Part shown: in pieces, positions 37,481 through 40,890 of the stretch
Numbering within the stretch: position 1 is the first letter of the stretch
How the letters are laid out: each line of letters starts with the position of its first letter
Source: Deltaproteobacteria bacterium
GTDB lineage: Bacteria; Myxococcota; Myxococcia; Myxococcales; Anaeromyxobacteraceae
Length of the DNA stretch: 43,818 nucleotides
NCBI GenBank assembly: GCA_016214955.1
Contig: JACRMN010000028.1
Coordinates: 1-43,818 of the forward strand
Direction: 5' to 3'
The notes under the pieces: model-generated
Seen by the model: the letters and a program-made list of their open reading frames with translations, nothing else
Database searches by the model: none
Told to the model about the DNA's origin: nothing
Made by a program: the position numbers and the translations under genes

Positions 37481-38770
37481 TCAGCCGCGACCGCGCGTCG
37501 CCCCGCCTCGCGGCCCCCGCGCGGTCGCCAGCGAGACCGTCGCGAAGCCGAAGCGGGCGCGGATGCTGTCGACGGCCGCGCCGACCCGCTCGTTGCGATC
37601 GAAGAGCGGGAGCTGCTCGAACATGCCCAGGTTGGAGAGCTGCACGCCGAGCAGGCGGATCGGCAGCGGCCGCGTCCGCGCCGCCACCAGCATCTCCTTG
37701 ACGATGGGGTAGAGCTCGAGCTCCGAGCTGGTGGCCGCGGTGGTGTGCGAGCGCGTCAGCGTGTGGAAGTCGGCGTAGCGCAGCTTGAGGGTCACCGTGC
37801 GCGCCTTGACGTGGCGCTTGCGCGCGCGCCAGCAGACCCGCTCGCACAGGCCGCACAGGACCGCCTCGACGGTGGCCGGGTCGGTCACGTCCTCGCGGAA
37901 GGTGCGCTCGTTGGAGATGCTGCCGACGGTCTCGCCCTCGGGATCGTGCTCGGCGAACGCCGGGCGCTCGCGGCCGAGGTCGCCCGAGCCCAGCCCCTGC
38001 AAGCCGCGCCAGATGGATGGCGCCCAGGCGCCGAAGATCCCCTGCAGGTCCGCGACGGAGGCCTCGGCGACCGCGCCCAGCGTCCGGTAGCCGGCGGCGT
38101 GCAACCGGGCCTCGGCGGCGGGACCGATGCCGGGAAACGCCCGCACCGGCAGCGGCGCCAGCACGGCGCGCTCCACGCCCGCGGGCACGAGCATCACGCC
38201 GCGGGGCTTGGCCAGTGCCGACGCCACCTTGGCCACGACCTTGCTGGTTGCGACCCCGGCGCTCGACGGCAGGCCCACCTCGTCGAAGATCGCCGTCGTC
38301 AGCTGCAGCACCGCGCCCTCGATGACCGCGTCGCCGGTGCGGTCCTCGCCGCCGCTCCCGCCGGCGGCGGCGCCGGACCCGTAGAGCCGCTCGCAGCCGG
38401 AGAAGTCGAGGTACATCTCGTCGATGCTGGCGACCAGCACCCGGGGCGCGAAGCGACGCGCGATGGCGCGCACGCGCTCGGCGTAGGTGCCGTAGACCTC
38501 GTGCCGGGTGGGCAGGTAGATGGCATGCGGCGCGCGCTTGCCGGCCTCGGTGAGCGACATGCCCGACTTCACGCCGAGGCGGCGCACCTCGTAGCTGCAG
38601 GCGGTGACCACGCCGCGGCTGCCCGGCTTGCCGCCGACGATCACCGGCTTGCCTTCCAGCGTGGGATCCAGCAGCCGCTCGACCGACACGAAGAAGGTGT
38701 CGAGATCGAGGCAGCAGATGCGCGGCGCCGCCAGCGGCTGCGCGCGCGCGAGCTCCGACGCCGTCCCCAT
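37481..38770 (-). CDS. dinB: DNA polymerase IV (Y-family translesion polymerase)
   Basis: 429 aa. Catalytic acids are present: D22 (CCLDLDTFFVSVE) and D117-E118 (VASIDEMYLDFSG), with F27 as steric gate. The palm and finger motifs (GVVTACSYEVRRLGVKSGMSL) and the HhH region (GIGPAAEARLHAAGYRTLG) are clear. QLPLF near residue 393 is a likely sliding-clamp-binding motif. The protein performs error-prone lesion bypass. A LexA-box-like site lies 15 nt upstream of the start, suggesting SOS induction. Confidence 0.93.
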   Translation of the reverse strand: MGTASELARAQPLAAPRICCLDLDTFFVSVERLLDPTLEGKPVIVGGKPGSRGVVTACSYEVRRLGVKSGMSLTEAGKRAPHAIYLPTRHEVYGTYAERVRAIARRFAPRVLVASIDEMYLDFSGCERLYGSGAAAGGSGGEDRTGDAVIEGAVLQLTTAIFDEVGLPSSAGVATSKVVAKVASALAKPRGVMLVPAGVERAVLAPLPVRAFPGIGPAAEARLHAAGYRTLGAVAEASVADLQGIFGAWAPSIWRGLQGLGSGDLGRERPAFAEHDPEGETVGSISNERTFREDVTDPATVEAVLCGLCERVCWRARKRHVKARTVTLKLRYADFHTLTRSHTTAATSSELELYPIVKEMLVAARTRPLPIRLLGVQLSNLGMFEQLPLFDRNERVGAAVDSIRARFGFATVSLATARGPRGGATRGRG

Positions 38771-38784
38771 GCTCCGGACGATAG

Positions 38785-38801
38785 CTGATCAAACGTTCAG
38801 G
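38785..38801. promoter_or_regulatory. Putative LexA (SOS) box upstream of dinB
   Basis: CTGATCAAACGTTCAGG agrees at 14 of 17 positions with the LexA-binding consensus described for Myxococcus, CTRHAMRYBYGTTCAGS, including the whole conserved GTTCAGS half. It lies 15 nt before the dinB start codon, where repressor binding would block transcription. It also precedes the divergent ferredoxin/MBL gene by 78 nt. Confidence 0.6.
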
Positions 38802-38879
38802 TTCAAGCCGGGAGCTGGGCGAGCGCCGGGACGGCCTCGCCGGGCGGCGCCCCGATGGGCCGCGGACTATCCTCGAGGC

Positions 38880-39752
38880 GTGGCCCTGCTCGCCCATCGC
38901 GTCCCCGAGGACGCCCCCGGCGACCTCTTCGTCGACACCTCCTGCATCGGCTGCGACACTTGCCGGCGCCTCGCCCCGGGGATCTTCGGCGGCGGAGCGA
39001 GCGGCCGGTCGTTCGTGGCTCGCCAGCCCCAGGGCGAGGAGGAGCGCCGGCGCGCGCTCCTGGCGCTGGTCTCCTGCCCGACCGCCTCCATCGGCAGCGC
39101 CTCGCACCAGGGCGTGGCCGAGGCCTCCCGGGCCCTGCCCGAGGAGGTGGCCCCGGGCGTGCTCGACTGCGGCTACGCGGCCGAGTCCTCCTACGGGGCC
39201 TCGGCCTGGCTGCTGCGCCGCCCGGAGGGGAACGTCCTCGTCGACTCGCCGCGGGCGGCTCGCCCGCTCCTCGAGCGGCTCCGGGCCATGGGCGGGGTCC
39301 GGACGATGTTCCTCACCCACCGCGACGACGTCGCCGATCACGAGCGGTTCCGCGAGGCCCTCGGCTGCGAGCGGGTGCTCCACGAGGCCGATCTCGCCCG
39401 GGGCACCGCCGACGTCGAGTGGGTGCTCGAGGGCGGCGAGCCGGTGGCCCTGGACCACGACCTGCTCGCCATCCCGGTGCCTGGCCACACCCGCGGCTCG
39501 GCGGCGCTCCTCTGGAAGCACACCTACCTCTTCACCGGCGACCACCTCTGGGCCGACCCGGAGGGCCGGCTGGAGGCCTCGCGCTCGGTGTGCTGGTGGA
39601 GCTGGGAGGCCCAGCTCCGCTCGCTGGAGCGGCTCCTCTCCTTCGAGTTCAGCTGGGTGCTGCCGGGCCACGGGCGGCCCACCCGCCGCGAGTCGCCCGA
39701 GGCGATGCGGCGCGACCTGGCCGACCTGGTGGAGCGGCTGGGCGGCCGGTAG
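38880..39752 (+). CDS. Ferredoxin domain fused to metallo-beta-lactamase-fold hydrolase
   Basis: 290 aa from GTG 38880. The first 75 residues form a single 4Fe-4S ferredoxin: CIGCDTC (C22, C25, C28) and C66 in SCPTASIG. An MBL fold follows: FLTHRDDVADH in the place of the HxHxDH metal motif, PVPGHTRGSAALL, YLFTGDHLW and WVLPGHGRPTR. The first metal motif is changed from HxHxDH to H-R-D-D-V-A-D-H, so the metal site may be altered or rely on spaced ligands. Possibly a redox-linked hydrolase; substrate unknown. It is divergent from dinB. Confidence 0.8.
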   Translation: MALLAHRVPEDAPGDLFVDTSCIGCDTCRRLAPGIFGGGASGRSFVARQPQGEEERRRALLALVSCPTASIGSASHQGVAEASRALPEEVAPGVLDCGYAAESSYGASAWLLRRPEGNVLVDSPRAARPLLERLRAMGGVRTMFLTHRDDVADHERFREALGCERVLHEADLARGTADVEWVLEGGEPVALDHDLLAIPVPGHTRGSAALLWKHTYLFTGDHLWADPEGRLEASRSVCWWSWEAQLRSLERLLSFEFSWVLPGHGRPTRRESPEAMRRDLADLVERLGGR

Positions 39753-39867: not shown

Positions 39868-40755
39868 TCACGGTCCCTCGGGAATGTCACCCGAGTAGAG
39901 CCGGGTCAGCAGCCAGGGCTTGCGCTTCAGGAGGTCGGCGATGGGCGGGCTCACGTCGGAGCCTCGCCGTGCCTGGGCGGGGGTCTCGGGCCAGGCAAAG
40001 GGGAGCTCCAGGTAAGCATCGGGCGTGCGCGCCGCGTCGAGCAGGCCGAGGAGCGCCCGGAGGACGGCGCGCTGCCCATCGGCATCGCCGGGGCGACCCA
40101 TGGGGCGCGACATGGGGTGGGCGATGCCGGCGAGGCGGGGCACGCCGACGGCCCGGGTGAAGTCGGGAATCATGGACAGGGAGACGGTGGAGATCCCCTC
40201 GGCTTCGAGCACCCGCTGGACCAGTCCCACGGACCGGCAGCAGAAGGGTCAGGCAGGAACGAGCGCCGCGGCGTCCACGCCGCGCGCCCGCATCTCCCGG
40301 GCGATGGCCGGGGCGGTCTCGCGCTCCAGCACCTCTGGGCGGAGCTGGTAGCCCATGAGCGAGTAGTGGGTGTCCGCGGCCCGGCCGACGACCCCCTCGC
40401 CGGCGAGCTCCCGCAGCCGCCGCATGGGCAGCACCACGTCGAGGTCCGTGGCGCCGAAGCGCCGGTCGATGTGCAGGTGGTGGAGCCCCACCTCGCGCTC
40501 GGTGGTCTGCTGCGGGATGAGCCGGAAGGTGGGATCGCCCCACCAGGGGTTGCGGCGCTCGCCCTCCTCGTCGAAGGGCGCGTCGTCGAGGCGGGCAACC
40601 CCCGCCGTGGAGACGAGAGCCACCGTGGCCTGGGCCAGGGGCCTGGCCATGGGCGTCCAGGGGATGGCGCGATGGCCTCGTGCCTCGCGCTCCACCCAGG
40701 CCTTGATGATCTGGCGGCTCGCGAAGTCGAGGTAGCGGTAGGAGTCGATGGGCAT
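39868..40755 (-). CDS. Predicted selenoprotein, glycine/sarcosine/betaine reductase selenoprotein B-like family
   Basis: 295 aa if the in-frame TGA at 40,249-40,251 is read as selenocysteine. SD AGGAGG lies 7 nt before ATG 40755. The part before UGA (MPIDSYRYLDFASRQIIKAW, ATVALVSTAGVARLDDAPF, HHLHIDRRFGATDLDVVLPM) and the part after (SVGLVQRVLEAEGISTVSLSMIPDFTRAVGVPR) together make one protein resembling the small selenoprotein B-like family. The join reads U169-P-F-C172-C, a UxxC redox motif where many relatives have CxxC. A stable hairpin begins 5 nt after the UGA. Selenocysteine insertion needs sel genes elsewhere in the genome. The only alternative is a nonsense mutation, which the intact downstream frame makes unlikely. 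Confidence 0.8.
40213..40243 (-). promoter_or_regulatory. Candidate SECIS hairpin directly after the UGA
   Basis: Reading on the minus strand from 5 nt after the UGA, CTGCTG pairs with CAGCGG and CCGGTCC with GGACTGG around a GTG loop, with a two-base UC bulge on the 3' side. Bacterial SECIS elements are short coding-region hairpins in just this place, often with a bulged U. The fit is by position and fold only. Confidence 0.55.
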
Positions 40756-40890
40756 GGCCGCGCCTCCTGCAGCAAGCGGGCCGCCTCGGCCGGGCCCGCC
40801 GTTCGCCGGAAGCCTGCCGGAACGGACGACAGCGCTGCCCGCCCATCCGGCAGTTGCATCGAACGAAGCCCCTGGGCGCATACTCCACCG

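Follow-up and report, generated by a model that had tools for sequence, protein, structure and literature searches.

A PrdB-like gene with an in-frame TGA

We analyzed a stretch of 43,818 nucleotides, here called the window, which corresponds to contig JACRMN010000028.1 of a Deltaproteobacteria bacterium in the Anaeromyxobacteraceae (assembly GCA_016214955.1). It contains a gene for a PrdB-like protein that is interrupted by an in-frame TGA (Table 1). A preliminary description of this DNA had given the correct coordinates for the feature but left its strand unnamed; the protein is read from the minus strand, and the plus-strand translation of the same interval is unrelated to it. With the TGA read as selenocysteine (Sec), the translation around codon 169 is VPAUPFCCRSVGLVQR; the U-P-F-C motif described earlier is present at this codon and is followed by a second Cys (U-P-F-C-C). 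By eye, we also noted an open frame on the plus strand (38604-39752) that resembles a fusion of a ferredoxin domain with a metallo-beta-lactamase-fold protein.

Table 1 Features of the PrdB-like gene and its paralogue in the same genome.
Feature	Position	Strand	Remarks
PrdB-like (PF07355) selenoprotein gene (predicted)	39868..40755	minus	295 aa, Sec = residue 169
Start codon ATG	40755-40753	minus	PrdB-like selenoprotein gene
Stop codon TGA	39870-39868	minus	PrdB-like selenoprotein gene
In-frame TGA, read as selenocysteine (codon/residue 169)	40249..40251	minus	UPFC motif; TGA in orthologues, Cys in Cys-form homologues
Shine-Dalgarno-like AGGAGG upstream of ATG	40761..40766 (approximate)	minus	Read from the sequence
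bSECIS-like hairpin inside the coding sequence	40212..40244	minus	7-bp upper stem, GUG apical loop
C-terminal extension (PPI..LL.RKPWLL..LY.G.IP)	39871..39945	minus	Conserved in the window clade
Own-genome paralogue (L045)	G000:C11:2135-2842		PrdB-like, URLC type

The codon 169 TGA and the downstream hairpin

The host genome (5.3 Mb, 95.6% complete) encodes the complete machinery for Sec insertion: SelA, SelB, SelD and tRNA-Sec, the genes that the preliminary description had proposed to look for, are all present. The tRNA-Sec carries the anticodon TCA (UCA) and scores 74.9 bits, and SelD is itself a selenoprotein, with its own TGA within GAGUACK.

A pattern search of genome contigs with the single protein gave no match; an alignment-based search then recovered orthologues. 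A search of 195 genomes of the phylum yielded an orthologue from another family that is 74% identical, carries the same TGA and aligns over residues 1-293, so that similarity does continue on both sides of the TGA, as had been suggested. Searches of genome contigs added orthologues from Eisenbacteria, two Gemmatimonadota and Thermoanaerobaculia, with 53-71% identity. Altogether, TGA occupies codon 169 in 5/5 orthologues (53-74% identical) and in one decayed copy, across four phyla counting the window. More distant relatives have either TGA or Cys codons (G001, G002 and a Roseomonas plasmid). In every homologue that we read, position 169 is Sec (TGA) or Cys, the outcome anticipated for a selenoprotein; UxxC is kept throughout, and the residue exchanged with Cys is the one at position 169. 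The decayed copy (L037, G119:C397) belongs to the same clade as the window gene; it lacks the 5' end and has lost an internal segment downstream of the Sec region, while the TGA and the hairpin are intact. On the Roseomonas plasmid, the Cys-form selenoprotein-B-like gene (L071, 4896-7281) lies beside selO.

Both before and after the TGA, the protein is under purifying selection. Between the window gene and its orthologue L052, dN/dS is about 0.23 before the TGA and 0.14 after it, and values are below 0.3 on both sides in all three pairs compared (window-L052, window-L055 and L056-L057).

Folding of the mRNA bears out the earlier observation of a hairpin that starts 5 nt after the UGA. Its apical loop is GUG, or CGUGG with the closing pair included, and the loop starts at the 19th nt after the UGA (18 nt spacing). 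With its 7-bp stem and a free energy of -19.2 kcal/mol, the hairpin fits the published model of the bacterial SECIS (PMC13188914); an Rfam search returned no SECIS match. The hairpin had been called stable, and here the earlier claim has to be tempered: the 39-nt element is modestly more stable than shuffled sequences (z -2.05) and the surrounding 66-nt window is no more stable than they are (z 0.24). Given that energy alone is unconvincing, we turned to covariation, using 15 sequences anchored on the UGA. In this alignment, 96.2% of cells are paired and double changes occur in 5/7 pairs; the covariation score is 0.546, against 0.224 for shuffles and no more than 0.15 in slid registers. Codon choice follows the same pattern: Gly177 is encoded by GGA in 11/11 sequences with Ser-Val-Gly, as the stem needs it, compared with 13/187 of the remaining Gly codons of these genes, counts that are uncorrected for shared ancestry. 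The hairpin stem is under selection, and the covariation is decisive on this point.

These observations bear on how the TGA is read. If the TGA were a genuine stop codon, an error of sequencing or a lesion in a pseudogene, the downstream frame would be a relic or a separate gene; a lone genome with a TGA would look just like this, and one relative (L037) does look decayed. But the TGA recurs in independent assemblies from four phyla, the region downstream is under purifying selection and contains a covarying hairpin, and homologues replace the TGA with a Cys codon. This reading is extremely improbable, and on these sequence grounds (TGA conservation, selection, covariation and Cys exchange) we regard it as refuted. 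Even less credible is that UGA encodes a different amino acid such as Trp, or is passed by general read-through, an idea that nothing but the open frame favors: the gene itself ends at a TGA, its orthologues terminate at the same point or close to it, the exchanged residue is Cys and never Trp, and a tRNA-Sec with the anticodon TCA is present. Sec is thus almost certainly inserted at codon 169.

Relationship to PrdB and GrdB

The part of the protein before the TGA matches PF07355 with 30.9 bits, above the gathering cut-off of 22; the UxxC motif and the assignment to the selenoprotein B-like family, both proposed earlier, are upheld. The best NCBIfam match is TIGR04483 (PrdB), with 130 bits and an E-value of 8.7e-38, far under the equivalog cut-off of 300 bits; TIGR01918 (GrdB) scores 40.4 bits, below its cut-off of 65.45. 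PrdB, the Sec-containing beta subunit of D-proline reductase, is homologous to the window protein, with about 31% identity over residues 33-255 and with Sec at the aligned position of UxxC. The two differ in that the motif is UPFCC in the window protein and UGTCH in PrdB, and in that PrdB lacks the C-terminal extension. With GrdB and the selenoprotein B family, UxxC is again shared, but the alignment covers only the C-terminal portion of the profile (positions 212-345 of 347).

In both reductases partner proteins matter, and the preliminary description had pointed out that no glycine or proline reductase genes lie nearby. This observation extends to the whole genome. PF09338, which covers the pyruvoyl proteins of the PrdA/GrdE type, has no match anywhere in the host genome at its 95.6% completeness, whereas prdA of a Terrisporobacter plasmid is detected in this search; GrdA (PF04723) likewise has no match in the host genome, in a search that was run without a positive control. 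Because neither the pyruvoyl partner nor GrdA was found, we do not class the window protein as a D-proline or glycine reductase.

A maximum-likelihood tree groups the window gene with L052, L055, L058, L056 and L057 (support 100/96), and this window clade lies apart both from PrdB and from URLC-type paralogues, one of which is encoded in the same genome (L045). Members of the clade have the motif UPxCC, and the C-terminal extension is common to its complete members; PrdB and most relatives that fall outside the clade do not have it. Judged from these sequence comparisons, the window gene belongs to the GrdB/PrdB (PF07355) superfamily as a stand-alone gene and falls in a separate clade. Members of this clade come from four phyla, yet none was found in the sampled congeners (two genomes, only 81-87% complete) or in other members of the family, a distribution that suggests horizontal transfer. 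By eye, L054-L058 and the window share no neighbor genes; as the neighborhoods are not conserved, no partner can be read from context.

It remains to weigh whether the window protein nevertheless acts as the Sec-containing PrdB in a D-proline reductase, or as a reductase of the GrdB type, on an amino acid that a pyruvoyl partner holds. The best NCBIfam match and the PF07355 score both point that way, as does an earlier catalogue that gives such proteins the name 'proline reductase' and lists Anaeromyxobacter dehalogenans with one (PMC1794560). We consider this highly unlikely, given the shortfall from the equivalog cut-off, the separate clade, the genome without a PF09338 match in a search that does detect prdA, and, with the caveat on its control already given, the missing GrdA. 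UxxC selenoproteins of pfam07355 have been catalogued as 'proline reductase PrdB' in the Sargasso Sea and GOS data and are abundant in bacteria outside Clostridia (PMC1088965, PMC2398784). The window protein is of this same kind, and these catalogues, including the A. dehalogenans entry, lump the PrdB-like subfamilies; the family is therefore known, but the distinct branch to which the window gene belongs appears to be undescribed.

A peroxiredoxin-paired sister subfamily and the proposed function

The own-genome paralogue belongs to a sister PrdB-like subfamily with the motif URLCHRT/UPxCHRT. We examined 27 loci of this subfamily (L021, L023-L036, L038-L045, L064, L066, L067 and L069), including some from Planctomycetota and Rhodospirillales, and a peroxiredoxin gene adjoins the PrdB-like gene in 27/27, a count that overstates independence because the loci are related. 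The peroxidatic site of the adjoining peroxiredoxin is Sec in 24 (TPVU or TPTU), Cys in 2 and unresolved in 1. In the host genome, Sec is predicted in both the peroxiredoxin and the PrdB-like paralogue, and the hairpin of the latter keeps 7/7 pairs with a GGUC loop. In two congeners, G002 (L042) and G001 (L043), both genes have Cys in place of Sec even though these genomes retain SelA; the TGC-bearing PrdB-like copies have lost the GU of the SECIS loop, which is now GGCG, and 4-5 of 7 pairs are left. These patterns indicate that the sister PrdB-like gene and the Sec-peroxiredoxin are a predicted two-selenoprotein gene pair. The papers that we consulted mention pairs of Prx with SelW and of Prx-like with AhpD-like proteins, but no pair of peroxiredoxin with a PrdB-like protein.

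In contrast, none of 7 window-clade loci has a peroxiredoxin beside the PrdB-like gene. The hint at function thus comes from a paralogous clade, and we carry it over cautiously. The window protein could serve as reductase for a peroxiredoxin whose gene lies at another site in the genome, just as the paralogue may do for its neighbor; the constant adjacency in the sister subfamily and the matching Sec/Cys states of the pair in three genomes of the genus would fit this arrangement. We think it rather unlikely, however, given the absence of adjacent peroxiredoxin genes in the window clade and the clade's own C-terminal extension and UPxCC motif, features that mean its partner may differ.

An AlphaFold model of the protein (pLDDT 89.5, pTM 0.91) has an alpha/beta fold in which Sec169 lies between a strand (162-166) and a helix (172-185); the C-terminal extension is modeled at lower confidence as two short helices. 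Searches against solved structures and folds gave no clear relative, the best Foldseek E-value (0.023) and the best VIA-align Z-score (8.1) being in the range of common arrangements.

Taking these data together, the best joint explanation, to which we assign a probability of roughly 0.88, is that the window gene encodes a true SelB-dependent selenoprotein, a stand-alone PF07355 member that works by a selenol/thiol redox mechanism. The UGA at codon 169 would be decoded as Sec through SelB and the in-frame bacterial SECIS hairpin just downstream. In the protein, the Sec169 selenolate, which the model places after a strand at the N-terminus of a helix, would attack a small substrate that is oxidized or electrophilic; the product would be resolved as a selenenylsulfide by Cys172 (or Cys173), and the selenol would be regenerated by thioredoxin or another cellular dithiol. 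We infer this chemistry from the UxxC at the start of a helix, the exchange of Sec with Cys and the lack of a pyruvoyl partner. Taken by itself, the thiol/selenol redox role is probable, and the protein is most likely a UxxC selenol/thiol oxidoreductase. Its substrate is more likely to be a peroxide, a disulfide or a similar electrophile than D-proline, since no pyruvoyl subunit was found and the sister subfamily is tied to peroxiredoxin; a specific link to peroxide or peroxiredoxin, which is drawn by analogy, is a more tentative suggestion.

In ocean catalogues, UxxC selenoproteins of the PrdB-like type rank among the more frequent selenoproteins of bacteria, but their name comes from an enzyme whose essential partner the host genome lacks. 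We offer as a conjecture, short of an even chance, that those outside amino-acid fermenters may form a separate class of Sec-dependent thiol/peroxide reductases rather than proline reductases, with one subfamily paired with a Sec-peroxiredoxin and the UPxCC clade free-standing and horizontally spread. The window gene is a clean example of a Sec gene that annotation is likely to miss, and its clade is marked by a distinctive motif and tail. The paralogue of the window gene offers a testable functional link: a Sec-peroxiredoxin beside a PrdB-like protein, with matching Sec/Cys states.
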